Source of the DNA: Syntrophus aciditrophicus SB
GTDB taxonomy: Bacteria > Desulfobacterota > Syntrophia > Syntrophales > Syntrophaceae
DNA: 64,000 nucleotides
Assembly (NCBI RefSeq): GCF_000013405.1
Contig: NC_007759.1
Location: 807,001-871,000 of the forward strand
Direction: 5' to 3'
Made by a program: the position numbers and the translations under genes. The notes beneath the pieces were generated by a model. That model made no database searches, had not been told where the DNA came from, and was given only the letters and a program-made list of their open reading frames with translations. The first letter of the stretch is position 1, and every line of letters begins with the position of its first letter. This document shows, piece after piece, positions 7,616 through 40,183 of the stretch.

Positions 7616-8005
7616 ATGCCGACCCATGCCGGAAGTGTCACTTATCGTAAGGAACAGGACAAAATCCTCTATCTCATTATTTCTTCATCCGATGGTGTAC
7701 ATTGGGTGCTGCCGAAAGGCCATATAGAGCCCGATGAGTCACCTGAAGAGGCCGCTTTGAGAGAGTTGAGAGAGGAAGCAGGAATTGTGGGCGAAATTGT
7801 TAATAAACTCCCGCTTCAATCTTTTGACGTTGCCGGGAAACCGGTCACTGTACAATATTTTCTCATCAAGTCTTCAGGATATTGTCCGGCACATGAGCAA
7901 AGATTGATCCGATGGAAAGATCAAGCTTCCTCCCTTGAGCTGCTATCCTTTGCAAATACCCGAATGATTCTGCTTGAGGGATCTAAAAGACTCAAAAACC
8001 TGTAA
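7616..8005 (+). CDS. Nudix hydrolase
   Basis: Hydrolyses a nucleoside diphosphate linked to another group; the substrate is not predictable from sequence. The complete Nudix box GHIEPDESPEEAALRELREE followed by AG is present, preceded by the usual WVLPKGH entry strand. The chosen ATG (7616) follows AGGGGGT at about 7602-7608 and gives a 129-residue protein starting MPTHAGSV. A start at 7577 would add 13 basic residues, with a poorer ribosome-binding site. Confidence 0.88.
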   Translation: MPTHAGSVTYRKEQDKILYLIISSSDGVHWVLPKGHIEPDESPEEAALRELREEAGIVGEIVNKLPLQSFDVAGKPVTVQYFLIKSSGYCPAHEQRLIRWKDQASSLELLSFANTRMILLEGSKRLKNL

Positions 8006-8158
8006 ACTCAGGCAGTCACGCAAAATCCACAGAAATGCCGAAGCACAGGCATTCAAACATAGCAGCGAAATAAATCACCATAAGACGAAAAATTCCAACC
8101 TTCTTGTCTTGCCTCCTGTCCCGACGGGGCAGAAGGAACAATGGCACAGACAATAAAC

Positions 8159-8614
8159 TCAGGATGCCGAAATTCTTAACAGAAGTTCTTTTCCCAGGTC
8201 GGAACAGCGCTTCTTTGCCTCTTCACTGACTGGACCGACGCTCGATACCGTTTCTCCTATCCGCTGAAAGAAACGGTCAGCAAACCCCTCGAACGGTTGT
8301 TTTGCCCGTCCGCCGCCTCCATGAGTCATGAAAAGGACCGCAGGTTTTCCCTTGACGGGCTTCCCCGCTTTGTTCCAGAGATAAAGGTCGTCAAAGAACG
8401 TCTTGATCGTACCTGCCGGAAAGGAATAATAGTCCGGGGTGCCGATAGCCAAGGCATCGGAGGACAGAAATTCTTCCGGACTTACCCGCTGTTCGTTTGT
8501 GTTGATGATTTGAACTTCCCCGCCGGCATCCCGTATTGCCTCGGCTACGGCCAGAGCCAGAGTCCTGGTGTTGCCGTGCTCCTGACTGTGATAGATGACT
8601 AAAATTTTTTTCAT
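8159..8614 (-). CDS. Flavodoxin-like FMN protein / NAD(P)H-dependent FMN reductase family
   Basis: A 151-residue flavodoxin fold. The N-terminal strand and phosphate loop read ILVIYHSQEHGNTRTLA (residues 4-20). A mid-chain GTPDYYSFPAGTIKTFFDDL and FMTHGGGG match the flavin-contacting loops of the family. It is probably a low-potential electron carrier or quinone/FMN reductase. It is monocistronic and convergent with the Nudix gene. Confidence 0.85.
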   Translation of the reverse strand: MKKILVIYHSQEHGNTRTLALAVAEAIRDAGGEVQIINTNEQRVSPEEFLSSDALAIGTPDYYSFPAGTIKTFFDDLYLWNKAGKPVKGKPAVLFMTHGGGGRAKQPFEGFADRFFQRIGETVSSVGPVSEEAKKRCSDLGKELLLRISAS

Positions 8615-8874
8615 CCTGAATACCCTTTCCTGAAATCAATAAGTATCTTGTATACCGGCGAAAAAACATTTGCAAATTTTAATTTGCCTTTAAATAACAG
8701 CTAATTAACACGGGAATGTCTCACGTTGGCAATTTCGTGGCACCCATGATGTTATATCTAGCATGAAAAAAAGCATTCCGGTGATAAAGATTTCTTGCAT
8801 AATGAGCTGTGATGATGTAGTTATATTGAAACTAATAAATAATGCCCGTTATGGCATAAAGAGGTTTGTTACAG

Positions 8875-8890
8875 TGGGAAAGTATTTGCG
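8875..8890 (+). promoter_or_regulatory. Candidate sigma-54 promoter for benzoate-CoA ligase 1
   Basis: TGGGAAAGTATTTGCG has GG and GC separated by exactly 10 bases and an intact TTGC, as in -24/-12 promoters. It is one of two GG-N10-GC matches in this leader (the other, at 8727, is weaker). The sigma-54 activator gene nearby makes it plausible, but no upstream activator repeat like that of the second ligase was found. Confidence 0.4.
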
Positions 8891-9266
8891 CCTCAAAGTT
8901 GCCAGGTGCCGGGAAAGCGGTTGTTGCCATTGCTTACAGATTCTTGATCTGAGTTCTTCATGTCATGAAAGAAGGAGGTGAATCCGAAATTCCGGAGATC
9001 GTTGTTTGGTTCTCCGAAACAAAGCGCAGGAAATGGCTTACTAAGAAGGAAGAGGCCTGATTGATGGATTGCGGCCCGATGCATAGACAGAAGTAGAAGC
9101 AACATAAATAAATAACAGGGGCATAAGAAATAAATTTTCCTAAGTTGATCAGGAACAAAAGCCGGAAGCGCTTGAAAAGATATGACAGATCGGTCGGGAA
9201 AAGAAAAAAGGAGACTCCTTAAAGGCTGATCATCATTAGAAAATATATGCGGAAGAAGTAGAGAGA

Positions 9267-9283
9267 TGTGAATTGATTTCACA
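9267..9283. promoter_or_regulatory. Palindromic site upstream of benzoate-CoA ligase 1
   Basis: TGTGAA-TTGAT-TTCACA is a perfect inverted repeat ending 28 bases before the ATG. It resembles a CRP/FNR-family half-site pair but with one extra central base. Its position close to the ribosome-binding site suggests a repressor operator or RNA structure rather than an activator site. Confidence 0.35.
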
Positions 9284-9311
9284 TTAACCATTACCAAAAG
9301 GAGGAGGAAAC

Positions 9312-10886
9312 ATGGCAAAGTTATACCCGGAGGAATTTTACAACTCAGCAGATTGGTTTGTAGACAGGCACGTCAGGGAGGGACGCGGCGACAATATTTG
9401 CGCTTATACGGACAAGGGCAATTACACCTATCGTGACATCCAGAAAATGGCCAACAAGATGGCTAACATGTTCAAGGATCTGGATATCCGGATGGGCGAC
9501 CGAATCATCATGCTTGTTCTGGACACCCCTTGGTTTTATTCCACTTTCTGGGGTGCGGTAAAGATGGGGGCTGTCCCTGTCCCTTCCAGCACCATGCTTA
9601 CGCCCGCCGACTATGAATATTACCTGAATGACAGCCAGGCGAGGACGCTTGTTGTTTCATCGAGACTTCTGCCGGTCGTCAATCAGATCGAAGAACTTCG
9701 TTTCCTTAAGAATATGATTGTTGTCGATGATGACGGTGTATTTTCCACGCCTTACCAGCAGATATATGCCTCAGCATCGGATGAATTTCAAACCGTGTTT
9801 ACCTCGGCGGATGATGTTGCCTTCTGGCTTTATACATCCGGCACGACCGGCGGTCCGAAGGGGGCGGTTCATTCGCAGTCCGATATGCAGTACAGTGCTG
9901 AAGCTTATGGAAAGCATATCCTCGAGATTACGGAAAAGGACATCTGCTACTCGGCAGCTCGACTCTTTTTCACCTACGGCCTCGGCAATGCCATGTTCTT
10001 CCCCATGTCTGTCGGCGCCGCGGCTGTCCTGAACCCGGATCCCCCCGCTCCAGCCCATGTGTTCAGGTTGATCAAGACCTACAAGGCAACATTGTTCTTC
10101 GGCGTTCCAACGCTGTTCGGCCAGATGCTGATTACCCAGGATAAAATTGACGCGGAGAAGGGCGCTGGAGCTGACCCCAAGGATCATGATCTGGTGTCGC
10201 TCCGAGCCTGTCCGTCTGCCGGCGAGGCGCTTCCCCCCGATCTGTACCATAAGTTCAAGGCCCGCTACGGCGTGGAAATCCTTGACGGACCGGGTTCAAC
10301 GGAAATGCTCCATATCTATCTGTCCAACAAGCTGGGCGACGTCAAACCAGGTTCCAGTGGAAAGCCTGTCCCCGGCTATGAAGAGAAGATCATGGATGAA
10401 GAAGGCAAAAATGAACTGCCTGACGGTGAAGTCGGAAACCTCTGGATCAAAGGGAGGAGTTCACTCCGTTATTACTGGAGAAAGAGAGACAAGACAGCCG
10501 CTACCGTCATCGGTGAGTGGGTCAATTCTGGTGACAAGTATTACAAGGATGCGGAAGGGTACTACTGGCCGTCAGGCCGGGCCGACGACATGCTGAAAGT
10601 CGGCGGCATCTGGGTGTCCCCGCTGGAAGTGGAAAACTGCCTGAGAGAGCATGCATCCGTCATGGAATGTGCCGTGGTAGGCGCCATGGACGAAGAGAAT
10701 CTGGTGAAACCGAAGGCCTTCGTCGTCCTCAATCAGGGGTTTGCACAGTCTCCGGAACTCGAAAAGGAATTGAAACAGTGGGTTCTCGACCGGCTGGCCA
10801 AATTCAAGTATCCGCGATGGATCGTGTTCATTGATTCACTCCCCAAAACTGCGACCGGGAAGATCCAGCGTTTCAAACTTCGTTAA
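9312..10886 (+). CDS. Benzoate-CoA ligase (AMP-forming), copy 1
   Basis: Activates benzoate or a related aromatic/alicyclic acid to its CoA thioester using ATP, giving AMP and pyrophosphate; it is the entry step of anaerobic benzoate degradation. This 524-residue member of the adenylate-forming superfamily has the P-loop YTSGTTGGPKG (174-184), the DGPGSTEMLHIYLSN motif, the hinge GRADDMLKVGGIWVSP and the C-terminal lysine in PKTATGKIQRFKLR (K517). DGPGSTE and the ADDMLKVGG hinge are typical of the benzoate-CoA ligase clade. The ribosome-binding site GGAGGA precedes the ATG. A second copy lies convergently 435 bases away. Exact substrate range is inferred. Confidence 0.92.
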   Translation: MAKLYPEEFYNSADWFVDRHVREGRGDNICAYTDKGNYTYRDIQKMANKMANMFKDLDIRMGDRIIMLVLDTPWFYSTFWGAVKMGAVPVPSSTMLTPADYEYYLNDSQARTLVVSSRLLPVVNQIEELRFLKNMIVVDDDGVFSTPYQQIYASASDEFQTVFTSADDVAFWLYTSGTTGGPKGAVHSQSDMQYSAEAYGKHILEITEKDICYSAARLFFTYGLGNAMFFPMSVGAAAVLNPDPPAPAHVFRLIKTYKATLFFGVPTLFGQMLITQDKIDAEKGAGADPKDHDLVSLRACPSAGEALPPDLYHKFKARYGVEILDGPGSTEMLHIYLSNKLGDVKPGSSGKPVPGYEEKIMDEEGKNELPDGEVGNLWIKGRSSLRYYWRKRDKTAATVIGEWVNSGDKYYKDAEGYYWPSGRADDMLKVGGIWVSPLEVENCLREHASVMECAVVGAMDEENLVKPKAFVVLNQGFAQSPELEKELKQWVLDRLAKFKYPRWIVFIDSLPKTATGKIQRFKLR

Positions 10887-21843: not shown

Positions 21844-22486
21844 GGGCTTCTGACCTGGGAGTGGAATTGAACGACCTTATCGGTGATTCTCCGGTGGGAT
21901 ATCAGAAACCCGGCGGCAATGCAATGAATGATCCGGGAAATTTCACGCCGGGCGGGAGACGTGATCGGAACTTCCGGCAATGAATTCCGCTGCTGATTTT
22001 TTGCTATGTTGCTATTTCTGCAGCGAAATGTTATGACTCTGCCCGCGATAAGGCCAGTCCCCTGTCAACTTGTTAATCGGCACTCATGTGAACGTTCGTC
22101 TCCTTCGTCATCGAACGGGTTTAGTTTTCTGGAATAGCGCATGCAAACCATCATTAATACCACGAATGCCAAAGTCTCCAATGCTCCCGGAGCATTCATT
22201 ACGCAGAAGGAATACTCGTTTCCTATCTTTTGTCTTAAATTGGGAACCAGCACTATTCCCAATCAAGCCATCATTTCTACTCAAGCCATGACGTTTGCCA
22301 TCAAATTCCATAGAGATGCATGGTTATTGATATTTATGCCTTTAACTATTGTGAGTTCGGTGAAAAAAGAAGCAGTATGTTTCTGTATATCTTCTTTTGT
22401 GGTGAGATATACAGATTATATAGAATAACTTGATGGACCCGCCTTCAGCCTACTTAAACGGGAATTATGTCAACGGAGGATTTATT
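21844..22486. other. Border region before the defence island, no gene supported
   Basis: About 640 bases between the SpoIID-type gene and the first island gene. Overlapping 60-95 codon frames on both strands around 22065-22430 lack ribosome-binding sites and recognisable sequence. Base composition becomes more AT-rich from about 22100 onward. No integrase, tRNA or obvious attachment repeat was found. Confidence 0.4.
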
Positions 22487-23221
22487 ATGAATAAAAAATT
22501 TCATCTAAATGCTGAGACCCTGCCCGGATTCATCAAAAAAGCTGAAAAAACAATACTGAGACCAAAGACACTGTATAAATGGTATGATATTGTAAATGGG
22601 GTGAGTGTCAAACGACAGAATGGAACCACGCAGACGATGTGGGCCGTTGCCTCCAACACTTTCAGAGGTTTTCACAGGATACAAAAAGGCTGCCCTGGGG
22701 CATCCATAGTGTTTCGCAATTATTTTGTTTCAAATAAACACAGGCTCCTTACTGAAATATTAAGTGCTAAAAATTCCACAGAGTTGCATCACGTCGAAAA
22801 AAGGGTTTGCACCGATATACGCCCTAAATTATCAAACATCAGACAAGGTTCATTAGATTCGTATGGCAGAATACGCAAACCTGTTGATCTATACTTTCAG
22901 AATCTTATCTGCATGGCACAAGAACTTGATCGATCAAGAGTTAATCTCGTCCCATACTTATTCCTTGCCCTTGACAGCCAAATGTTCTCCGATCCAAATG
23001 TTTTCACAGACGAAGAGCTAAGGGCATTTCATCTGTCTCGACGATCGACATACAAAGACGTTACGGATGAAAAAATGTATATCCAATTACAAGATATACT
23101 TTCAAAAAAAGCAACTCAACTCAGCAACCGGGACGCGAAATTTTATAGAATCTATTTTGATATGCTCTGGAATAACAGGCATCAGAATTGGGGATCAAAT
23201 TTCTTTGAAACAAATCCTTAA
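22487..23221 (+). CDS. Uncharacterised protein preceding the Gabija genes
   Basis: A 244-residue, lysine- and asparagine-rich soluble protein (MNKKFHLNAETLPGFIKK...), more AT-rich than its neighbours. GGAGG precedes the ATG at 22487; an upstream in-frame ATG at 22430 is less likely. No domain is recognised. It has conserved-looking aromatic stretches (KTLYKWYDIVNGVSVKR, RIYFDMLWNNRHQNWGS) and no membrane segment. It is followed by gajA after 155 bases, so it may be a separate transcript or an accessory defence gene. Confidence 0.65.
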   Translation: MNKKFHLNAETLPGFIKKAEKTILRPKTLYKWYDIVNGVSVKRQNGTTQTMWAVASNTFRGFHRIQKGCPGASIVFRNYFVSNKHRLLTEILSAKNSTELHHVEKRVCTDIRPKLSNIRQGSLDSYGRIRKPVDLYFQNLICMAQELDRSRVNLVPYLFLALDSQMFSDPNVFTDEELRAFHLSRRSTYKDVTDEKMYIQLQDILSKKATQLSNRDAKFYRIYFDMLWNNRHQNWGSNFFETNP

Positions 23222-23376: not shown

Positions 23377-25287
23377 ATGCAGATCTCACGTCTCATAATA
23401 AAGAACTTCCGTGGTATTCAGAATGCGAGCATTATCCTATCAAAGCACTCTGTATTAATCGGCGACAATAACACAGGCAAAACCACAATACTTGAAGCCA
23501 TTGACCTGGCGCTCGGGCCGGACCGTCTAAACCGAGTGCCCCCGGTTGACGTGCATGACTTCTATCAGGGCAAATACATCTCTGACGCATCTGCTGATGA
23601 GGTGCCTACGAGTACTAAAGCTGAACAAGGCGTTAAAGCTGAGGGTGCCGTTGATGCAGTAGCTAATAATGCAGATGTCCAGGTTGATGGTGATGTTACC
23701 GCTGAAGCACCGCAGATTGAGATCGAGGTTACCGTTGCAGACTTGACCGAAGAGCAGAAGGGTAGGTTCGGCGATTACACCGAGTTCTGGGATACGGCGA
23801 CCGACACCTTCTATGACCAGCCCAATCCCGCCGGCGTTGATGCTGTCTCGATCAGTGAAGCGCTACGGGTGAGTTTCATCGGCTGGTACGACCCGGAAGA
23901 AGATGACTTCAAGGGGAAGACCTACTTCACCCGCAGTCTCTCCGAAGGTGACAACCCTGTGGTGTTCTCCAAGAAGGACAAGCAGATTTGTGGTTTCCTA
24001 TATCTTCGCTCCCTACGTACGGGTTCACGCGCGCTTAGCTTGGAGCGAGGCAGCCTGCTCGACATCATTCTGCGCCTGAAAGAGGTCAGGCCACAGATGT
24101 GGGAGTACACGATAAGCAAATTGGATTCGTACTCGGTTGCGAGTGACCCGGAATTGGGCATTTCCGGCGTGCTGGAAAGCATCAACGCGGCGCTCCAAAA
24201 ATATGTACCGAAAGAATGGGGGATCGAACCCCATCTAAAGGTGTCGAACCTGACCCGCGAGCATTTGCGGAAGGTAATTACCGCTTTTATCGCCACAGGC
24301 GAGGGCCGCCACGCTGCGCCGTTCTATCGGCAGGGTACTGGGACAATAAACATGCTCGTACTGGCGATGCTATCTCAAATCGCCGAAGACAAGCAAAACG
24401 TAATCTTCGCAATGGAAGAACCGGAAACGGCCATTCCACCCTATGCGCAAAAGCGGATTGTGCACGAAATCCGCACGCTCGCTTCGCAGACCATTTTCAC
24501 CTCGCACTCGCCTTACGTGCTTGAGGAGTTCACATTGGAGGAGACTGTTGTCCTCGCTCGGGACGCGCAAGGCGCGCTTCGTCGGTCCGCGATCACCCTG
24601 CCTGATAGTGTGAAACTAAAGCGCTATCGACAGGAGTTTCGTACCCGTTTCTGTGAAGGTCTGCTGACCCGCCGCATCTTGGTCGCCGAAGGGGCGACGG
24701 AAGCTGCGTCATTTCCAGTTGTGTGTCGGCGTTTGGCGGAGTTGAAGCCTGCCACGTATTCCTCCTTGGAAGCGTTGGGTATCTGCACAATCGATGCCGG
24801 TGGGGAGACGAACATCTCCGATTTGGCCAAACTTTATCGTGACCTTGGCAAGCGGACTCTTGCCATCTGTGATAAGCAGACTGATGAGGAAAAGGCACTG
24901 ATTGAAGCACAGGTTGATACTCTATTCATGCACGACGAAAAGGGTTTCGAAGACCTCGTCCTCAAAAACACCACCGAAGACGCCTTGAAGCGCTTTACCA
25001 AATTGATCGTCTGGCCCCAACACCTTCAGCAGAAATACCCAGACCCTGAAGCCCAAGCGCAGGCTGCGTTGAGCGACTATTTCTGTGGAAAAAAGGCCGA
25101 TTGGGGCGTATCTGATTTCCTCGCGCAGTGCACTGAGGACGAAATACCAGAATGGCTACGGGACACCTGCTTATCCTTGAAAGCAATTTGCGAACCTGTC
25201 CACGTTGGTGATGCCGACGGCGGCGCGCTCAACGCACCCGAAGCTCCAGATTCTGAACAGGGAGTAGACGTGGATGCAACTAACTGA
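23377..25287 (+). CDS. gajA: Gabija anti-phage protein GajA (OLD-family ATPase/TOPRIM nuclease)
   Basis: A 636-residue class 2 OLD protein that senses nucleotide pools and nicks DNA during phage infection. An N-terminal ABC-type ATPase has Walker A GDNNTGKTT (29-37) and Walker B FAMEEPETA (about 344-352). A C-terminal TOPRIM domain has VAEGATEAASF (about 435) and ICDKQTDEE (about 497). An acidic, alanine-rich insertion at about 70-115 is unusual for the family. The stop overlaps the start of gajB by 14 bases. The pairing of OLD nuclease and UvrD helicase defines Gabija. Confidence 0.9.
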   Translation: MQISRLIIKNFRGIQNASIILSKHSVLIGDNNTGKTTILEAIDLALGPDRLNRVPPVDVHDFYQGKYISDASADEVPTSTKAEQGVKAEGAVDAVANNADVQVDGDVTAEAPQIEIEVTVADLTEEQKGRFGDYTEFWDTATDTFYDQPNPAGVDAVSISEALRVSFIGWYDPEEDDFKGKTYFTRSLSEGDNPVVFSKKDKQICGFLYLRSLRTGSRALSLERGSLLDIILRLKEVRPQMWEYTISKLDSYSVASDPELGISGVLESINAALQKYVPKEWGIEPHLKVSNLTREHLRKVITAFIATGEGRHAAPFYRQGTGTINMLVLAMLSQIAEDKQNVIFAMEEPETAIPPYAQKRIVHEIRTLASQTIFTSHSPYVLEEFTLEETVVLARDAQGALRRSAITLPDSVKLKRYRQEFRTRFCEGLLTRRILVAEGATEAASFPVVCRRLAELKPATYSSLEALGICTIDAGGETNISDLAKLYRDLGKRTLAICDKQTDEEKALIEAQVDTLFMHDEKGFEDLVLKNTTEDALKRFTKLIVWPQHLQQKYPDPEAQAQAALSDYFCGKKADWGVSDFLAQCTEDEIPEWLRDTCLSLKAICEPVHVGDADGGALNAPEAPDSEQGVDVDATN

Positions 25288-27094
25288 GAAACAGACAAAG
25301 ATCATGGACGCCGAAGGGCACGTCCTCGTCACGGGAGGACCTGGCTCCGGTAAGACTACTATTTCTATTCTCAAGGCAGCGCAAATCGCTGGATGCGGTC
25401 TACGTCCAGATCAGAAAATTCTGTTTCTCAGTTTTGCCCGTGCGACCGTTTCAAGGGTTGTTGAAGCCATTGAATATGAGCAACAGATTCCGCACGAGCA
25501 GAAGAAACGGATCGATGTCGAGACGTATCATTCGTTTTTTTGGCGTATTCTCAAAGCGCATGGTTATCTAGTCGGCTTACCGAGGCAGCTCTCCATCCTC
25601 ACACCACCAAGCGAAGCTATAGAGCTTTCGACGATTCGGAGTGGTTATGCGCCAGCGTCCAAACTGAATAATGCTGAGAAAGCCGAGAAGCGTGCAAGGG
25701 AAGACGCGGAACGTCTGAGACTCGCACGGATTGAGGGTTGCGTCTGCTTTGACCTTTTCGCGCAGTATACTGGGGATATCCTGCAGGGGAGCAAGCGCAT
25801 CCGTAAGCTGATCGCCACCATGTATCCAGTCATCATCCTTGACGAATTTCAGGACACAAATGTCGAGCAGTGGCGCGTCGTGCAGGCGCTTGGTGAGCAC
25901 AGCATATTACTCGCCCTCGCTGATCCTGAGCAGCGCATATATGACTGGATCGGGGCTGACCCTAAACGCTTAAGCCACTTCAAAGACGCATTCGCGCCAA
26001 CCGAGGTGGACCTCAGCACTGATAATCACCGCAGTGCCGGCATCGATATCGTTGCGTTCGGCAATGACATTCTTACGGGCAAGTTCCGGGAAGAGCCCTA
26101 CAGGGGAGTGCAAATCGATGTCTATACTCCAAATTTCAATCAGGCTTTTTCTGCTCTAGTTACTACCACTTACAAAGCCAGAAAACGTCTCATCAATAGT
26201 GGTCGAGAGGATTGTTCTTTAGCCATCCTCGTGCCTACGAAAAAGATGACTCGCCTTGTCTCGGATAGCTTTCGGTCACCCCTTGCAGGTATGACCAAGA
26301 TTCCTCATGCGGCCGCCATCGAGACGGAGGCCGCCATCTTGGGAGCCGAGATAATCGCCTTCCTGATGCAGCCCGATATGGACGGCAGCCACTTCAAGCA
26401 CTTTATCGACCTGTTGCGCAACTATTTTCATGGTAAGGGGGGCGACAACCCAACAAAGGCCGACCTCAAGGAGGCCGAGAATATCCAGAAGGCATATAAT
26501 GACTGGCGCTCCCGGCAAGCGGCCGGAAAGGACATCAACAAGAGAAGCATCCTTATCGCCATTATCGCTGTTTATGGTACGACGCGCAAGATAGTGCTCA
26601 CAGGGGATCCTGACAAAGATTGGCGTGCAGTTAGGAACATTTTGGAAGAGGGCGCCTGCCCTCGTCTTAAAAGAGTTGCGGAAGAAGTCCGAAATATCCG
26701 CCTTCTGGAACGCGGCACACAGTTAAGACAAGAGCTTTCACAAGACTGGCGCGACAAGGGTGCCTATGACAATGCTCTCAGGATCACCCAACAGGCTTTT
26801 GTACGGGAACATTTTTCCACTAACGCCAATCCTGAATCTGGTGTTGTGGTAATGAACATGCACAAGGCTAAGGGCAAGCAGTTCGACGAGGTGATTATCT
26901 TTGAAGGTTGGCCGATTAAACGGAAGGGACAACCTCCATACAATGCCGACCGTATTGTTCGGTACAACTCACGAAAGCATGATAGCGACCAATCTCGTCA
27001 GAATCTTCGAGTTAGCATAACGAGAGGAAAGTTTCATGCCACGATCTTAACTCCTAAGGGTGACCCTTGTATCCTTCTTATTGGTGAGGGTTGA
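25274..27094 (+). CDS. gajB: Gabija anti-phage protein GajB (UvrD/Rep-type helicase)
   Basis: A 606-residue superfamily 1A helicase with Walker A GGPGSGKTT (21-29), motif II VIILDEFQDTN (about 187-197), QRIYDWIGAD after motif III, and motif V VMNMHKAKGKQFDEVIIFEG near residue 527. It is translated from an ATG inside the 3' end of gajA, so the two are coupled. GajB is known to be required with GajA for defence, hydrolysing NTPs when activated by DNA ends. Length is a little above the usual for GajB. Confidence 0.9.
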   Translation: MQLTEKQTKIMDAEGHVLVTGGPGSGKTTISILKAAQIAGCGLRPDQKILFLSFARATVSRVVEAIEYEQQIPHEQKKRIDVETYHSFFWRILKAHGYLVGLPRQLSILTPPSEAIELSTIRSGYAPASKLNNAEKAEKRAREDAERLRLARIEGCVCFDLFAQYTGDILQGSKRIRKLIATMYPVIILDEFQDTNVEQWRVVQALGEHSILLALADPEQRIYDWIGADPKRLSHFKDAFAPTEVDLSTDNHRSAGIDIVAFGNDILTGKFREEPYRGVQIDVYTPNFNQAFSALVTTTYKARKRLINSGREDCSLAILVPTKKMTRLVSDSFRSPLAGMTKIPHAAAIETEAAILGAEIIAFLMQPDMDGSHFKHFIDLLRNYFHGKGGDNPTKADLKEAENIQKAYNDWRSRQAAGKDINKRSILIAIIAVYGTTRKIVLTGDPDKDWRAVRNILEEGACPRLKRVAEEVRNIRLLERGTQLRQELSQDWRDKGAYDNALRITQQAFVREHFSTNANPESGVVVMNMHKAKGKQFDEVIIFEGWPIKRKGQPPYNADRIVRYNSRKHDSDQSRQNLRVSITRGKFHATILTPKGDPCILLIGEG

Positions 27095-27157: not shown

Positions 27158-27208
27158 CACAGTCACCTGGCAGCTAAAGCCTGTGGCTTCCGCTGCCAGG
27201 TGACTGTG
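27158..27208. terminator. Long perfect hairpin after gajB
   Basis: A 17-bp perfect stem (27158-27174 with 27192-27208, CACAGTCACCTGGCAGC and its complement) encloses a shorter inner stem AAGCC-TGT-GGCTT. It lies 64 bases past the gajB stop. There is no T-run, so Rho-independent termination is uncertain. It may be a 3' structure, or part of the inverted-repeat element that begins 10 bases further on. Confidence 0.6.
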
Positions 27209-27218
27209 GGCGATATGC

Positions 27219-27354
27219 CTTACTAAGGATTAACTTATCTACTCGACATCAGCCCATATTTCATACTGAAATCTATGTCTGGAGCCTGTCTTTATAGGGA
27301 ATAGAATAATCGGCAACTTAAATATGTCGAGTAGTCAGGTTAAGTATTAGTAAG
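27219..27354. mobile_element. MITE-like element with 31-bp terminal inverted repeats
   Basis: The left end (27219-27249) and right end (27324-27354) are inverted copies of each other over 31 bp, 25 of 31 positions identical. The inner 11 bp, CTACTCGACAT, are perfect. The 136-bp element has no coding capacity. It sits between gajB and the large helicase gene, inside the defence island, and may mark a past insertion or be an operator pair for the next gene. Confidence 0.5.
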
Positions 27355-27576
27355 TGGTGTTCCTTGTAGAAGCTCGGCGTTGCGGATTCAAAGGAGAATC
27401 CGATCAACAAGATCGACCGTACCAAGTACGGGGCAATTTTCCTGTATCAGTTTTTTAACATTATCGGTTGAAAGATGCATCTGTTGGGTGATGAAATAGC
27501 ATTCCACAGATTGAGTTCGCCCGTTGCACCAGTTCCATTAAAACAATAAGCCGACAGATGCATGGGAGGACTCGTC

Positions 27577-30500
27577 GTGAATGATGTCATTAAGAACAAG
27601 ATTCGCCAGTTGTACCAGTTCCTGAAGGAAGCCAATCAGCTTCGCTTCCGTCCTGTCCGTGTTCTTTCGGATCAGCCGAAGGTCGTCCGGCTGGCAGACA
27701 TGCCCAATCATCCAGCCATGCAACTGTTTCGACCGGTGCGTACGGAGAACATCCAGGAGGTCCCGGATTTGCTGCTGCGCGTGAAGCGTCCTCCGTTGAC
27801 CAAGTGCCCGCCGCCGCCGCCGTCGATTGCCTCGTGGCTGGTACCGAACTGGGACGATCCGGCCAGGACGGTTTCCGTCGCAGAAAGCCAGAACACCACC
27901 GACAATGAAAGCAAGACCCTCACCATCCGGTTCGATGAAGACCCGCAGCGCGTGGCTGACTTGAAGGCTTGGTCGGAACAGCGCAAGGCTTGGATCGAGC
28001 CCGAACTATCCGCCCGCAAGGCGATGTCCTTCTTCGAGGTGTTCTACGACATCTACTCTGCCATCGAGAAGGATGGCGAAGGACTGGAATTGCTTGTCGC
28101 AGATGGGCATTTCCTGTGGAAGGCCACTTCGGGTATTGACGGTCCGGTTACAGTGCATCATCCGGTTCTGCTCAAACGCGTGGAGCTTCGATTTGATCCC
28201 AACGTCCCCGAATTTACGATCCACGAAACCGACCGGGAGCCAGAGCTTTACGGCAGCCTGTTCGTCGATCTGGAAGACGTCGCTCCTGCTGCAATCCGTA
28301 ATCGGAAAAGAGAACTTGAAACCTCGGGCTATCACCCCCTGGGATGGGACGACACCGGAGCCTTCCTGCGCGCCTTCATCCAGACGGTTTCGCCGCTCAA
28401 AGGGGAGTTTCTCGACGATCTGCCCCACGATGGTGCTACTGCTACGCCACGGCTGTATCGGGACATGGTCCTGATCCTCAGAAAGCGTGTCGCTGGCATC
28501 GCCAACGCCGTCGACGCCATCATCGACGATATTGAACAGCAGGACGTCTTCCCGCCGTCGCTGGCACAGATTACCGGTACGATGGCCGAATGGGAGAGTG
28601 CTGGTCTAGGCGAAAGCTCCGGTGCCTGTTCCGCCGGCAGTTTCAGTGGCGGTACGTCAGAGAAAAGCCTTAGTGACGACGATATCCTTCTCGCGAAGGA
28701 AGCCAATGACGAGCAAATGCAAATCATCCGTCGGCTCGAACATTGCGGAGCGGTGATCGTCCAAGGGCCGCCCGGTACCGGCAAAACCCACACCATCGGC
28801 AATCTGATCGGTCACCTGTTGGCGCAGGGAAAATCCATCCTGGTCACCGCGCAGTCCGCCAAGGCGCTGCGAGTGGTACGCGAAAAGGTGCCAGAAATGT
28901 TGCAACCCTTAGCCGTCTCGGTCCTCGGCAGTGACCAGGACGCCCGGCGGCAATTGGAATCCTCCATCAGCTCCATCACCGAACGCCTGACCGGCAATAC
29001 CGTTGACAGCCTTCTCCAGAAGGCAAAGAACTTCGAGGCCGAGCGCAGGAATTTGTTGTTCCAGATGAAGCAACTGAGCCACAGGCTGCGTGAAGCACTT
29101 GAGAACGAGTATCGCGAGATCTTTGTAGGCGACCGGCATTTCACACCTTCCGATGCTGCCCGGTTCGTCTCGATAAACCGTGAAGCACACGACTGGATAC
29201 CGTCGCCGATTAAACTTGGGACCGAACTGAATCTGACCGAACAGGAACTGGTGCGGTTATATGCCCTCGGCACCTCCTATACTGCGGAAGAAGAACAAGA
29301 TGCTCGCTACCCCTTGCCGGAGATGGCGATGCTGCCCTCGGAGCGACAATTCCAGATCATGGTGTCAGAGTATCAGCACCTCACGACGATCGACCTGTCG
29401 TCTGACGCCAATCACTGGCAACCGTCCGATTGCGGCAGCGAATTGCTGGAGAAACTGGCCACTGAACTGGCAGCGGAATTCTCCGATGACCTGCGTCATC
29501 AAGCATGGCGTCCTTATGCCATCGTCGCCGGCATTCACGGCGGTACTGAACGAGAGGTATGGGAACGACTTATTGCCGATATCGAGGAAGCGGCGGAAGC
29601 CAACTTGAAGCACGCGCTGGTGCTTCACCACAGCCCGCGACTATCAGAGGCTCTGCCGGTGCATAGGCAGCACCAAATTTCCATCGAAATCTGCGGGCAC
29701 ATCGATACCGGTGGGAAACTTGGTTTCCTGCAACTGGCGACCCACTCCGAGTGGCGTCATTTCATAAAGACAGCGTCAGTCACGGCTGGACAACCGAGTC
29801 ACCGCGACCATTTCGAGGCTCTCGGACACCTTGCCGAACTCGAGTACCTGCGAGCCAGACTGGAACTAGCGTGGAATTCGATGATCGGGCAACACATCCA
29901 GCAGCCGTTCAACAGCCTTGGATCGGCCCCGGAGCTTGCCTGTCGTGCACTCGTTCCTGAAATCCAGCGGTGCCTGGACTGGCACGCTTCGGTATGGGAA
30001 CCGCTAACAGCCAAGCTGAAGGCTGTGGGACTTAAACTGGATGATCTGATCACATCGCTTACCCGGGAAGCAACGCAGATTTCGGAATATTTGGTTATAG
30101 AACGGCTGGCGTCTTCAATACTACCCAAGCTGCTGAGCACTGAAGCAGGGCGTCGTAAACTGTGCGAATGCGAGGCTAACTTCAGTCAGCTTGCTAACCT
30201 TGCCACGCAAGTTGATCCGACATCGCCTGATCGCGGCTGCATTGGCCGCATTATCGCCGCCGTCAGGTCGCGTAATCCTGATTCTTACTCTTCGGCACTG
30301 GAGTACACGCGGCGATTGCACGCAGTGAAGCCGCTGGTTGCCGAAAGAGATGCATTGGCTGGAAAACTGGGCCTTATCGCACCGGGTTGGGCGGAGCAAA
30401 TTACCCACCGAGTGCCACCGCATCATGATGGAAAAGTCCCGGGGAATTTTGCTATGGCGTGGACATGGCGACAGTTGCACTACACCCTTGCCGAGCGCGA

Positions 30501-32382
30501 TAAACTCGATACCCATGAACTACAACGACAGATTGACCGGACGCGAGAAACGTTGCGGCAGGTGACGCAATGGCTGATCGATGCCAAGGCCTGGGGTAAA
30601 CAGCTGGAACGACTGCAAGGAAATCCTTCAATTCGGCAGGCATTGGTTGGTTGGCTAGATGCGACCAAGCGCCTTATTTATACGCGGCAGTTGGACAAGC
30701 GACAGACACTCCTTTCCGAATCGCGAAAACTGATGAAGAAATGTGCGGATGCGGTACCGGTCTGGATTATGCCGATCTCAATCTTGGCCGAGAGCTTTGA
30801 TCCACGCGCGACGCGCTTCGATGTGGTGATCATCGACGAGGCCAGCCAAGCCGACCTTAATGCATTGATTCCACTTTATCTAGGCAAGCAGGTCATAGTC
30901 GTCGGAGACCATGAGCAGGTCACGCCCCTGGGTGTAGGCAAAAAACAGACAATCTTGGAAAACCTGCGCAAGTCAATGCTGCAGGATATTCCGAATTCAT
31001 TCCTCTTCGACAATCTCTTCTCAATCTATGACATCGGGAGGGAATCATTCGGGGATGCGATCCGACTAGTCGAGCATTTCCGGAGTGTGCCTGAGATCAT
31101 TGCCTTCAGCAATCTGCTTTCTTACGAGGGGAAGATTCGACCGCTGCGCGAATCGAACTCGACGGACATTAAACCGGCATGTGTCGGATGTCGGGTAGAC
31201 GGGGTACGCGAAGGTGACATCAACAAGGCTGAGGCGCGGCGCATCATAGATACCATCAAGGCGATGATTCGTCACCCGCGTTATACTGGCAAGACCATCG
31301 GCATCATCTCCATGCTGGGCGGTGCGCAGGCATTACTGATCCAGTCCATGCTTCATAAGGAAATATCCGGTTTCGAAATCGCTAAGCGCCGCATCCAGGC
31401 GGGCATCTCCGGGGAGTTCCAGGGAGACGAGCGTGACATCATGTTCTTATCGATGGTCGATAGCTCGTCAGACGAGGGCCAACTTCGTACCACTGGCGAA
31501 GGTGCCTTCGAATTGATCAAGAAGCGTTACAACGTCGCGGCCAGCCGTGCCCGGGACCAGATGTGGGTCATGCATTCGTTTGATCCTGATCTTCACCTCA
31601 AAAGCAGCGACATTCGACTCAAGTTGCTTCAACACGTCCGCGATCCACTGGCATCCCTCCGGATCTTCAACCAGGAGGTCGGCAAGACTGAATCACCCTT
31701 CGAACGCGATGTTCTTAAGCGCCTTACAAACGCTGGGTACCGCGTCAAGTCGCAATGGCAGGTAGGTTATTACCGGATCGACATGGTGGTCGAGGGTGCG
31801 GGCAAGCGTCTAGCTATCGAGTGCGATGGCGACCGCTATCATCCGATGGAAAAGCTGTCTGATGATATGGAGCGTCAAGCCATCCTTGAACGCTTGGGCT
31901 GGCAGTTCATAAGGATTCGCGGTAGTGCGTTCTATCGTAACCCGGATCTTGCTATGCGGCCGGTTTTTGATCGACTCGAAGAGTTGGAAATTTTCCCGGA
32001 GGCGGATGTCGGCGAGACAACGGCCTCTGACATGACCCTGATCCACGAATTGGACGAGCTGATTAGGGCTGGATTTGGGCCGGAATCGGATGAACCGGAA
32101 AACGAGGTGATGGAAGATGTTAGCACGGATGAAAGGGAAAACGACCTCTTTGCCGGTTCCTCGCCGATAAGGCCAACCGACGTATATCCTAGCCAGACCG
32201 AGGCACTTCTCGAAAAGCTTGGTGGAACGGCATTGCTTGAGACCTTCCTGCGTGATTTAGCCAATTCGAAAGGTTTCAAACGGCTGGGTGTCAATGTTCG
32301 CAAGAAACTGGAGGCGGAACTGGCGATGCTTGTCCGAGAGGGGAAGATTGCAATTGATGGCGGAATCATAAGGCTGCTGTGA
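27577..32382 (+). CDS. Very large SF1 helicase fused to a C-terminal PD-(D/E)XK-type nuclease (defence candidate)
   Basis: A 1,601-residue protein. After an N-terminal region of about 380 residues, Walker A QGPPGTGKTHTIGN lies near residue 395 and motif II VVIIDEASQADLNALIPLY near 1083, split by a long insertion, as in Upf1/Dna2-type helicases. Near 1380-1470 a Vsr/DUF559-like nuclease domain has YYRIDMVVEG, AIECDGDRYH and WQFIRIRGS, giving the D...ExD catalytic pattern. Helicase-Vsr fusions are known phage-defence proteins. The GTG at 27577 is chosen because GGGAGGA lies 6 bases before it; an ATG at 27562 would overlap that site. The gene is in a defence island with Gabija. Confidence 0.82.
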   Translation: MNDVIKNKIRQLYQFLKEANQLRFRPVRVLSDQPKVVRLADMPNHPAMQLFRPVRTENIQEVPDLLLRVKRPPLTKCPPPPPSIASWLVPNWDDPARTVSVAESQNTTDNESKTLTIRFDEDPQRVADLKAWSEQRKAWIEPELSARKAMSFFEVFYDIYSAIEKDGEGLELLVADGHFLWKATSGIDGPVTVHHPVLLKRVELRFDPNVPEFTIHETDREPELYGSLFVDLEDVAPAAIRNRKRELETSGYHPLGWDDTGAFLRAFIQTVSPLKGEFLDDLPHDGATATPRLYRDMVLILRKRVAGIANAVDAIIDDIEQQDVFPPSLAQITGTMAEWESAGLGESSGACSAGSFSGGTSEKSLSDDDILLAKEANDEQMQIIRRLEHCGAVIVQGPPGTGKTHTIGNLIGHLLAQGKSILVTAQSAKALRVVREKVPEMLQPLAVSVLGSDQDARRQLESSISSITERLTGNTVDSLLQKAKNFEAERRNLLFQMKQLSHRLREALENEYREIFVGDRHFTPSDAARFVSINREAHDWIPSPIKLGTELNLTEQELVRLYALGTSYTAEEEQDARYPLPEMAMLPSERQFQIMVSEYQHLTTIDLSSDANHWQPSDCGSELLEKLATELAAEFSDDLRHQAWRPYAIVAGIHGGTEREVWERLIADIEEAAEANLKHALVLHHSPRLSEALPVHRQHQISIEICGHIDTGGKLGFLQLATHSEWRHFIKTASVTAGQPSHRDHFEALGHLAELEYLRARLELAWNSMIGQHIQQPFNSLGSAPELACRALVPEIQRCLDWHASVWEPLTAKLKAVGLKLDDLITSLTREATQISEYLVIERLASSILPKLLSTEAGRRKLCECEANFSQLANLATQVDPTSPDRGCIGRIIAAVRSRNPDSYSSALEYTRRLHAVKPLVAERDALAGKLGLIAPGWAEQITHRVPPHHDGKVPGNFAMAWTWRQLHYTLAERDKLDTHELQRQIDRTRETLRQVTQWLIDAKAWGKQLERLQGNPSIRQALVGWLDATKRLIYTRQLDKRQTLLSESRKLMKKCADAVPVWIMPISILAESFDPRATRFDVVIIDEASQADLNALIPLYLGKQVIVVGDHEQVTPLGVGKKQTILENLRKSMLQDIPNSFLFDNLFSIYDIGRESFGDAIRLVEHFRSVPEIIAFSNLLSYEGKIRPLRESNSTDIKPACVGCRVDGVREGDINKAEARRIIDTIKAMIRHPRYTGKTIGIISMLGGAQALLIQSMLHKEISGFEIAKRRIQAGISGEFQGDERDIMFLSMVDSSSDEGQLRTTGEGAFELIKKRYNVAASRARDQMWVMHSFDPDLHLKSSDIRLKLLQHVRDPLASLRIFNQEVGKTESPFERDVLKRLTNAGYRVKSQWQVGYYRIDMVVEGAGKRLAIECDGDRYHPMEKLSDDMERQAILERLGWQFIRIRGSAFYRNPDLAMRPVFDRLEELEIFPEADVGETTASDMTLIHELDELIRAGFGPESDEPENEVMEDVSTDERENDLFAGSSPIRPTDVYPSQTEALLEKLGGTALLETFLRDLANSKGFKRLGVNVRKKLEAELAMLVREGKIAIDGGIIRLL

Positions 32383-32677: not shown

Positions 32678-32732
32678 TTGAAAGTATGACTTTCAATTTG
32701 ACATAACCTTCATTTTGCTTTATGAATTCAAA

Positions 32733-33923
32733 ATGATAAGTCGAACGCTAACGGATAAAATACTTTCTCTTGCCCGGCAGTTTCCTGTCGTCTCGATTAC
32801 CGGTCCCCGGCAATCGGGGAAAACGACCCTTGCCAGAATGGCATTTCCCGATTATACCTACGTCAGCCTGGAAGAACCGGATGAGAAGGATTTTGCCGCA
32901 ACCGATCCGAAAGGATTCCTCAAACGTTTCACGGGCGGTGTGATTCTGGATGAAATCCAGCGGGCGCCGATGCTTCTCTCCTATATCCAGGTCATTGTGG
33001 ACAGCGAGGATTTTCCGGGACATTTCATTCTCACGGGATCGCAGCAACTGCCTCTCATGGGCCGGATCAGTCAGACCCTGGCCGGTCGGACGGCCGTTGT
33101 TCATCTTTTGCCCTTCAGTCTTGATGAACTGCTGACTCGACCTTCCGCTGATCCCCTCAGCATTGACCGTCTCCCGGCAGCCCGAGAGAAACCTCCTTTC
33201 GAGCTGGAAACGATTCTGCATACGGGATTGTATCCCCGCATTCATGACAAGGGACTGATCGCCCGGGATTGGCTTTCTTCTTATTACCAGACGTACGTGG
33301 AAAGAGATGTCCGAGATATCTCCAATATCGGCAATCTCGACGCCTTTCAACGGTTTGTCCGGCTCTGTGCCGGGCGATCAGGGCAACTGCTCAATCTCTC
33401 TTCACTGGCTGTCGATTGCGGGATTTCCCATACGACAGCGCGGCAATGGATTTCCGTCCTCCAGGCCGGATTCATTCTTCACCTGCTTCCGCCTCATCAC
33501 GCCAACTTCTCCAAGCGCTTGATCAAAAGCCCGAAACTGTATTTTCTCGACACGGGGCTTCTCTGCTTTCTGCTGAGAATCCGGGAGCCGTCCGACCTCG
33601 TGACCCACGCCCTGAGAGGGCCGATTTTCGAGACCTTTGTTTTTTCTGAGCTGTTCAAGGCGTTTGCCCATCGGGGAGAGATACCCCCTCTCTTTTTCTG
33701 GCGGGATCGGACAGGTCATGAGGTTGATCTGGTTATCGATGCAGGTCAAAAACTGATTCCTCTGGAGATCAAGTCCGGCCGGACCGTCAATGCCTCGTTT
33801 TTTGAGGGTCTCCGTTACTTCTGTGCTCTCGGCTCCCCCGCCTCCGAGACCGGCGTTCTCGTTCACGCCGGCGATGCGACTTATGCGCGGAAGAATTTTA
33901 TCGTTCTTCCCTGGTTTCTTTAA
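32733..33923 (+). CDS. AAA_14 / DUF4143 ATPase
   Basis: A 396-residue ATPase of the common AAA_14-DUF4143 pair. Walker A TGPRQSGKTT (about 23-32), Walker B GVILDEIQRAP, and sensor HFILTGSQQL are in the N-terminal half. The DUF4143 half contains YYQTYVERDVRDI and a restriction-enzyme-like HEVDLVIDAG...IPLEIKSG region. Its role is unknown; such genes are often mobile and found beside toxin-antitoxin and defence genes. An ATG at 32733 is chosen; a TTG at 32715 is possible. Confidence 0.85.
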   Translation: MISRTLTDKILSLARQFPVVSITGPRQSGKTTLARMAFPDYTYVSLEEPDEKDFAATDPKGFLKRFTGGVILDEIQRAPMLLSYIQVIVDSEDFPGHFILTGSQQLPLMGRISQTLAGRTAVVHLLPFSLDELLTRPSADPLSIDRLPAAREKPPFELETILHTGLYPRIHDKGLIARDWLSSYYQTYVERDVRDISNIGNLDAFQRFVRLCAGRSGQLLNLSSLAVDCGISHTTARQWISVLQAGFILHLLPPHHANFSKRLIKSPKLYFLDTGLLCFLLRIREPSDLVTHALRGPIFETFVFSELFKAFAHRGEIPPLFFWRDRTGHEVDLVIDAGQKLIPLEIKSGRTVNASFFEGLRYFCALGSPASETGVLVHAGDATYARKNFIVLPWFL

Positions 33924-38860: not shown

Positions 38861-40183
38861 ATGATCATGGCCCATATTCGAGTTGATGAACTGATGAATC
38901 AGGAAGCAACTCATACCCCGGCGTTCTGTCTTCGCGACACACCCTTTGGCCCTGTGGCCGTACTGTGGTCGGTTCATGGAGGCGAACCGAAGATCGGCCG
39001 CATCCTGCTGTCCGCTCCGGAAATCTCAGCCGGGCAGGCTGTCCGGGCGCTTTTCCCTCATTCCAGGGGCGCTTCCTGTGAGGAGATCGGCCTGATCCTC
39101 GATCAGATCGCGGCTTTTCTGGGCGGCGAGGATTCTCGATTTTCTCTCGACAGCCTTCGCCTTGATCTCTGTACCGCCTTTCAAAAGAGAGTTCTGCTCG
39201 CCGATTATGCCATACCCCGGGGCCGGATCAGCACATACGGATTGATTGCGAAACACCTGGATAACCCGAAAGGAGCCCGAGCCGTGGGAACCGCCCTGGC
39301 GAACAATCCCTTCCCTCTTGTGGTTCCCTGTCACCGCGCGATCCGTTCCGATGGAAGTCTGGGAGGCTTCCAATACGGTCTGGAAATGAAAAGAAAATTG
39401 CTGGAGATGGAAGGGATTGTCTTTCAGGATAAAAATCATGTCGCAACGCAGGATTTCTTCTATCGGGATGAAGCTGGAAGAGTCGGGGAAAAGGAGCATA
39501 GCGGAAAACTGATCGTGAATGAGACGCTGAATGCGCAGCAGAGGCACTGGGAAAACACATTTTCTGAAGCAGAAGACCTGTTCGGCATTGAACCCAGTGA
39601 GCCGGCGCGGATTGCCGTGGAGCTGTTTCTGAAAGAAGGAAAAAGGAGGATCCTCGAACTGGGGGGAGGGCAGGGCCGGGATGCCCTGTTCTTTGCCAGC
39701 CAGGGGTTCCAGGTGGATGTCCTCGATTATTCCGAACAGTCGATAACAACTATTGCGGAAAAGGCCCGGCAAATGGGTTTGTCCGACAAAGTGAAGGCCA
39801 TCCGGCATGACATCCGGGAGCCGCTTCCCTTTGAAGATGGGATTTTCGATGCCTGCTTTTCGCACATGCTCTACTGTATGGCGTTGACGACTGCTGAACT
39901 GGAAAGACTGTCCAGCGAAGTGCGTCGGGTCCTGCGTCCCGCTGGGCTGAACATCTACACGGTTCGTCACACCGGCGATGCGCATTACGGCGCCGGCATC
40001 TCCCGGGGCGAGGATCTGTATGAGGTCGGCGGTTTTATCGTCCATTTTTTCACCAGGGAAAAGGTCGAACGACTGGCCGGAGGCTATGATCTGGTCGGCA
40101 TCGACGAATTCGAAGAAGGCGACCTTCCCCGAAAACTGTTCCGGGTGACCCTGAGAAAGAAGGATTGGGTTTCGGCCTCGTAA
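38861..40183 (+). CDS. O6-alkylguanine-DNA alkyltransferase fused to SAM methyltransferase
   Basis: A 440-residue fusion. Residues about 20-190 are an Ogt/Ada-type suicide repair protein with the active site VVPCHRAIRSDGSLGGFQYG (C157). Residues about 225-435 are a class I SAM-dependent methyltransferase with motif I RILELGGGQGRDA (about 263-275) and FDACFSHMLYCM. The first removes methyl groups from O6-methylguanine; the second may methylate a small molecule or protein. I do not know this fusion as a common architecture. The reading frame is continuous through the junction. Confidence 0.88.
   Translation: MIMAHIRVDELMNQEATHTPAFCLRDTPFGPVAVLWSVHGGEPKIGRILLSAPEISAGQAVRALFPHSRGASCEEIGLILDQIAAFLGGEDSRFSLDSLRLDLCTAFQKRVLLADYAIPRGRISTYGLIAKHLDNPKGARAVGTALANNPFPLVVPCHRAIRSDGSLGGFQYGLEMKRKLLEMEGIVFQDKNHVATQDFFYRDEAGRVGEKEHSGKLIVNETLNAQQRHWENTFSEAEDLFGIEPSEPARIAVELFLKEGKRRILELGGGQGRDALFFASQGFQVDVLDYSEQSITTIAEKARQMGLSDKVKAIRHDIREPLPFEDGIFDACFSHMLYCMALTTAELERLSSEVRRVLRPAGLNIYTVRHTGDAHYGAGISRGEDLYEVGGFIVHFFTREKVERLAGGYDLVGIDEFEEGDLPRKLFRVTLRKKDWVSAS

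Follow-up and report, generated by a model that had tools for sequence, protein, structure and literature searches.

The helicase-nuclease gene and its predicted domains

The 64,000-nucleotide stretch of the Syntrophus aciditrophicus SB genome analysed here (contig NC_007759.1, positions 807,001 to 871,000 of the forward strand; henceforth the window, to which all coordinates refer) carries a gene for a 1,601-residue helicase-nuclease, with a complete Gabija pair directly 5' of it on the same strand (Table 1). The reading frame is uninterrupted on the + strand from an alternative ATG at 27562 to 32382. Judged from the sequence, the GTG at 27577 is the most plausible start, favoured over the ATG because a GGAGG motif (27565-27569) ends 7 nt 5' of it, and it yields exactly the 1,601 residues given in an original prediction made without database searches. 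The gene occurs as a single copy in the 3.18 Mb single-contig genome. The 482 nt between gajB and the gene hold three inverted repeats (27158-27208, 27219-27354 and 27475-27563), and in the last of these the upstream copy pairs with sequence near the ribosome-binding site (z-score of the untranslated-region fold, -2.4). No second copy of the upstream inverted repeat was found in the genome, and the region 27200-27370 occurs once.

Table 1. Features of the helicase-nuclease gene and its locus in the window
Feature	Coordinates	Strand	Basis or remark
Variable segment	21946..35591		edges conserved in congeners G001 and G003; contents differ
GajA (Gabija nuclease)	23377..25287	+	PADLOC 2.3e-266, positions 1-595 of 600
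GajB (Gabija helicase)	25274..27094	+	PADLOC 4.5e-237, positions 2-572 of 574
Shine-Dalgarno GGAGG and GTG start codon (27577-27579)	27565..27579	+	read from sequence
Helicase-nuclease gene	27577..32382	+	1,601 aa
N-terminal UPF1-like stalk/1B before RecA1, residues 1-335 (predicted)	27577..28581	+	AlphaFold2, VIA-align
DUF4011-like weak segment, residues 156-234	28042..28278	+	profile-profile comparison
RecA1 first part: Q motif (N377, Q380), Walker A	28690..28926	+	Pfam, alignment
Helical insertion between Walker A and motif II, residues 451-1059 (predicted)	28927..30753	+	AlphaFold2 secondary structure
RecA1 second part: motif II DEASQ, motif III GDHEQ	30754..30981	+	Pfam, alignment
RecA2, motifs IV-VI (QGDERD, NVAASRAR)	31024..31626	+	Pfam AAA_12, UPF1 match
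Vsr-type PD-(D/E)xK nuclease (MTES_1575)	31699..31977	+	Pfam, model, active-site residues
C-terminal tail, probably winged-helix, residues 1528-1601	32158..32379	+	weak match, low model confidence
AAA_14/DUF4143 ATPase, PADLOC candidate PDC-S01	32715..33923	+	downstream

The motor belongs to the UPF1-like helicases of superfamily 1 (SF1), as the original prediction had proposed at the level of the superfamily. Pfam places AAA_11 from residue 376 (E 1.4e-22) and AAA_12 at residues 1162-1332 (E 1.2e-13), and the SF1 motif set is complete, with Walker A GPPGTGKTHT at residues 397-406 (28765-28794), motif II at residues 1087-1091 (30835-30849), motif III at residues 1110-1114, motif V at residues 1282-1287 and motif VI at residues 1319-1326. 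The spacing of about 690 residues between Walker A and motif II is thus as originally noted. A scan of genome contigs recovered 428 related stretches, of which the best 80 were kept, and an alignment was made of 71 proteins that span the greater part of the query. The Q motif, Walker A, DE.SQ, motif III, QGDERDIM and NVA.SRA are fully or almost fully conserved throughout this alignment.

Two overlapping AlphaFold2 models were compared with solved structures, one of residues 1-1150 (71 sequences; mean predicted local distance difference test, pLDDT, 85.4) and one of residues 940-1601 (69 sequences; mean pLDDT 77.8). The second model resembles UPF1, IGHMBP2, SEN1 and senataxin (VIA-align Z 18.9 to 17.8), and Foldseek agrees (2wjv, E 3e-13). 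For the first model Foldseek matches were weak, with nothing below E 0.001, and the assignment of the N-terminus comes from VIA-align, a re-examination of Foldseek's candidates, in which UPF1, IGHMBP2 and Dna2 align over 271-348 residues (Z 18.5 to 17.6) from a point between residues 1 and 6 onwards. These matches therefore lead us to read the N-terminal 335 residues (pLDDT mostly 80-95) as, in all likelihood, a UPF1-type stalk/1B region ahead of RecA1, an arrangement that together with the RecA domains is typical of UPF1-like proteins. The roughly 610 residues between Walker A and motif II are modelled as an almost entirely helical insertion (pLDDT mostly 80-92), in place of the smaller 1C insertion of UPF1.

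The original view that the N-terminus and the insert match nothing recognisable was thus not borne out, given the resemblance to UPF1, IGHMBP2 and Dna2, a helical insertion like the one described for CnuH, and a weak DUF4011-like segment. Modelling supplied the UPF1-type match, while a Pfam search on the N-terminus alone gave no match at a permissive cut-off, and a sequence search of the PDB with the N-terminal profile gave no useful one. A profile of the N-terminus only aligned with the C-terminal half of DUF4011 over 75 columns (probability 62%, E 7.7e-5), where ELLVADGHFLW faces NTLYLALGFLLW of DUF4011, and a longer alignment to the PDC-S37-family profile takes in the Walker A region and reaches N-terminally as far as residue 160 (E 2.5e-30). 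These comparisons are suggestive of a relationship to DUF4011 and are not proof of it. The possibility that the N-terminus or the insert holds a HEPN RNase was rejected, as an RxxxxH-type motif is not among the conserved columns of the 71-member alignment.

The original prediction also placed a Vsr-like nuclease with the motifs YYRIDMV and AIECDGDRYH at the C-terminal side, and this proved correct. Pfam MTES_1575 (PF18741) matches residues 1375-1467 with E 3.3e-31 and 107.7 bits against a cut-off of 38.2, and the D, ExD, Q/K site of the PD-(D/E)xK fold is present as D1402, E1415/D1417 and Q1434. The fold is intact in the model, which runs alpha-beta-beta-beta-alpha-beta with pLDDT mostly 78-93. 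Among the 71 members, D1402 is kept in 69, E1415 in 51 and D1417 in 56, and the losses lie mostly within one clostridial branch.

A variable locus and a patchily distributed family

The locus is a variable spot. The flanks to the left (to ~21946) and to the right (from ~35591) share a contig in two congeners, 6.5 kb apart in G003 and 5.3 kb apart in G001. Between them, G003 carries a peptidase-like gene and one for a Roc-COR GTPase protein, and G001 carries TrkH/TrkA-like genes. No phage integrase was found within the window. The Roc-COR protein of G003 (L114:1744-4533; 929 aa) has an N-terminus of alanine-rich repeats and is possibly another conflict gene. Upstream of gajA, a 263-aa frame (22430-23221) matched nothing in Pfam, PADLOC or NCBIfam.

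Relatives were recovered from more than ten bacterial phyla, with one copy per genome in the 39 whole genomes that could be checked, split matches aside. Within the best 80 of the 428 stretches, the nearest relatives come from a Betaproteobacterium (78%), Nitrospira (82%) and Accumulibacter, with identities of 78-82%, and in a tree built on the helicase core the protein groups with those of the Betaproteobacterium and Nitrospira. In this tree a short-branched group draws its members from Acidobacteriota, Chlorobiota, Synergistota, Nitrospirota, Planctomycetota, Pseudomonadota and other phyla, a pattern that points to transfer across phylum boundaries. Occurrence is sporadic, as 4 of the 60 genomes listed among relatives and none of three congeners match at E<=1e-20. 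Relatives are also present on plasmids and on contigs classed as viral, and no match to the family was found in sequenced phage genomes. One relative lies on a 46.7 kb viral-classed contig (L146:6415-8736), matching residues 1-767 with 54% identity in the best segment. Three further copies (L037, L031 and L034) carry single in-frame stops (TAG, TAA and TAG, respectively) and are probably decaying genes or sequence errors. A literature search, whose coverage mostly left out subscription papers, found no published description of the family.

Methylase genes lie near the relatives more often than expected. Of 37 genomes, 7 have an N6-methylase gene within 20 kb of a relative, where 0.74 would be expected (Poisson P 1.3e-5), and 5 have one within 10 kb (0.42 expected). 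The control, ribosomal protein S2, lies within 20 kb in no genome of this set. In Robertkochia (L053), brxL of a BREX system (7946-9992) ends 27 nt ahead of the family gene. PADLOC tallies point in the same direction (177 families for 147 neighbour proteins, 42 for 147 length-matched controls) and were set aside as a statistic, because one protein can match many models.

Exchangeable tails and a nuclease-dead branch

Beyond the nuclease, the family members carry tails that sort into unrelated groups. In 41 of the 71 proteins the tail is 60 residues or longer, and some of the remaining 30 stop at contig ends. Seven members (L020, L022, L028, L032, L036, L053 and L063) have a tail resembling the C-terminal part of GreA/GreB, with a PF01272 match of E 2e-11 for L020. 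A second type is found in 11 members, a third in 10 (the Bacillus relatives, L066, L009 and L006), another in five Bacteroidota proteins, and L004 ends in a TPR tail; further types are also present. The protein studied here shares its type with L003 only. Its tail is probably a winged helix, judged from weak similarity to the C-terminus of the DUF4011-family proteins L090/L140 (E ~0.001 for the full sequence and 0.004 for the best domain, in a small set).

Exchange of tails is clearest in the pair L020 and L023, which share 84.3% identity across 1,327 residues and have unrelated tails, the similarity ending within ~20 residues past the nuclease. A PDB search with the L023 tail gave no useful match, and the winged-helix label for tails of this type is our own reading.

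The 15 Clostridium proteins (L014, L016, L021, L024, L029, L040, L046, L056, L057, L061, L069, L077, L078, L080 and L081) form one clade with support 100/100. They have lost E1415 and often D1417 and kept every helicase motif checked, have no tail, and are shorter at the N-terminus. Their surroundings are shared as well, with 11 of the 15 genes downstream of ileS and 12 beside a LacI-type regulator. The branch looks like one inherited vertically after adoption for a task that would need the motor only. Both this branch and the tail exchange are new to us.

Candidate functions and comparison with known systems

The protein is best read as a stand-alone antiviral (or anti-mobile-element) helicase-nuclease, to which a probability of about 60% is given. 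A defence role, already suggested in the original prediction and probably right, is argued for by the Gabija genes immediately upstream, the variable spot, the proximity of N6-methylases of the restriction-modification kind, and the relatives on plasmids and viral-classed contigs. The sporadic occurrence, the spread over many phyla and the homology of the core to Hhe also speak for it, as do the conserved helicase motifs and the intact nuclease site and fold. In this reading the motor, a predicted ATPase, would load where invading nucleic acid is exposed as a single strand and would move along that strand, presumably 5'->3' as assumed from UPF1-family helicases, with the helical insert and the stalk/1B region gripping the strand and gating the motor. 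The substrate would probably be DNA in replication, repair or transcription intermediates, with the Vsr-type nuclease cutting it and the exchangeable tail serving as a targeting or sensing adaptor. The type of nuclease and the likeness to Dna2 favour DNA.

Several observations weigh against this interpretation. The 37 genomes do not count as evolutionarily independent samples, and a single family, the N6-methylases, underlies the enrichment. The 147 neighbour proteins are not uniformly defence-rich, their commonest Pfam families occurring only twice. UPF1-like helicases work on RNA as well as DNA, and the Clostridium branch retains a helicase without its nuclease, so that cutting is not essential in every member. 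Antiviral activity is, moreover, a prediction drawn from sequence, models and context.

The kinship with UPF1 and the Gre-like tails keep RNA or transcription complexes a serious, if unlikely, alternative target. Here, the motor would act on viral RNA or on transcription complexes, and the Vsr-like domain would cut RNA or DNA at transcribed sites. The closest solved structures include UPF1, SMUBP-2, SEN1 and senataxin, and seven relatives carry the GreA/GreB-like tail. Similar proposals exist for Mokosh and for CnuH of CoCoNuT systems, RNA targeting having been proposed for CnuH-containing systems by Bell et al. 2024 (PMC11090510). Yet Dna2, a DNA nuclease-helicase, matches almost equally well (Z 16.4-17.7), and the protein itself has no Gre-type tail. 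A role in host DNA repair or end-processing, with a Dna2-like job and a place in the variable region by chance, is less probable still. It would suit the Dna2-like architecture and the vertically kept Clostridium branch beside ileS, but that branch is the one with the decayed nuclease, and the patchy occurrence, the absence from congeners, the transfer between phyla and the Gabija neighbour speak against it. Least credible is the idea that the protein serves the adjacent Gabija as an accessory subunit and is no system in its own right. The gene does follow gajB directly on the same strand, yet hairpins and inverted repeats in the long 482-nt gap make co-transcription doubtful, and this reading was dropped since a search of the relatives' stored flanks at E 1e-5 turned up no homologue of GajA or GajB.

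The stand-alone antiviral reading can be extended to the whole family, more tentatively than for the protein alone. The family would then be an unnamed, widespread set of antiviral helicase-nucleases with at least six interchangeable C-terminal aiming modules and one nuclease-less lineage adopted by Clostridium. Tails of GreA/GreB-like, TPR and probably winged-helix type join near-identical motor-nuclease bodies at a sharp boundary just past the nuclease, and each tail may direct the enzyme to its target. The C-terminal domain of GreA/GreB contacts RNA polymerase, and recombination of tails would change targeting, for example to this polymerase. If true, a large family spanning more than ten phyla would join the single-protein helicase-nuclease defences, having been missed by current system models, and DUF4011/Hhe proteins would be linked structurally with UPF1-like CnuH helicases. 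The natural domain swaps, in which 84%-identical bodies carry unrelated tails, would also bear on how foreign nucleic acid is told from self.

Elsewhere in the window, two fusions were observed, one of glycogen synthase, DUF3417 and phosphorylase domains (58521-62777; 1,418 aa) and one of an O6-methylguanine-DNA methyltransferase DNA-binding domain with an S-adenosylmethionine-dependent methyltransferase domain (38861-40183).

Among known systems, CnuH from type III-B CoCoNuTs has the closest published anatomy, compared by description alone. In this UPF1-like helicase Walker A is followed by a large helical insertion, and a Vsr nuclease is fused to the motor; the likeness would cover the SF1 motor, the insertion, a UPF1-type OB-fold element and the nuclease (PMC11090510). 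However, CoCoNuTs have McrB/McrC-type partners, and those of type III-B also a coiled-coil protein (PMC11090510). Membership was rejected because McrC (PF10117) has no match in the genome, where McrB GTPase was not searched separately; nor was McrC found in 33 of the 39 genomes with relatives. The winged helix-turn-helix is N-terminal in type III-B, whereas the probable one here is C-terminal.

The core is homologous to that of Hhe, an anti-phage protein named in NCBIfam. Hhe/PDC-S37/MTES_1575-type proteins (DUF4011-helicase-Vsr-DUF3320) have the same helicase core and nuclease, and the helicase-nuclease half matches the PDC-S37 family with E 9.6e-76 over 503 columns. L086, a full-length PDC-S37 protein, combines DUF4011, AAA_11/AAA_12, MTES_1575 and DUF3320. 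The protein studied here has no Pfam match to DUF4011 or DUF3320, showing at most the weak DUF4011-like segment and the weakly similar tail, and the family lists of 30 members do not include PF13195 (DUF4011) either. Against NCBIfam NF042953 (Hhe) it reaches 156.3 bits where the cut-off is 2000, and against PDC-S37 168-221 bits with the best stretch at 901-1455, whereas the best members from the same phylum score 748-1226 bits and proper members match in the N-terminal part too (profile positions ~7-590). For MTES_1575 itself, a related architecture that includes HEPN and transglutaminase domains has been described (PMC3710099).

Two other defence proteins resemble parts of the enzyme. The anti-phage protein ProA (NCBIfam NF058533) matches in the helicase-nuclease half (E 2.9e-63), but the score is 214 bits against a cut-off of 1500, and the best match starts only at residue 1035. 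MkoA/MkoC of Mokosh share the UPF1-like helicase core (E 1.4e-37) over residues 1076-1334, outside which the nuclease lies. This nuclease is of the MTES_1575 type and not a PLD fusion, and no MkoB or other Mokosh partner was present among the scanned neighbours; Mokosh membership was rejected on these grounds.

Finally, Dna2 and UPF1/IGHMBP2 resemble the model in RecA1 and the N-terminal part (VIA-align Z 16-18.5), and Dna2 likewise joins an SF1 motor to a nuclease. The nuclease of Dna2 is, however, N-terminal, UPF1 has none, and the ~610-residue helical insert is lacking in both Dna2 and UPF1/IGHMBP2. The enzyme has no full-length match to a non-defence helicase family and is captured by none of the existing system models, scoring too low or lacking partner genes for Hhe, ProA, PDC-S37, Mokosh and CoCoNuT, in keeping with the early suggestion of a new variant: it represents a separate, uncharacterised family within a known kind, and an unusually modular one.
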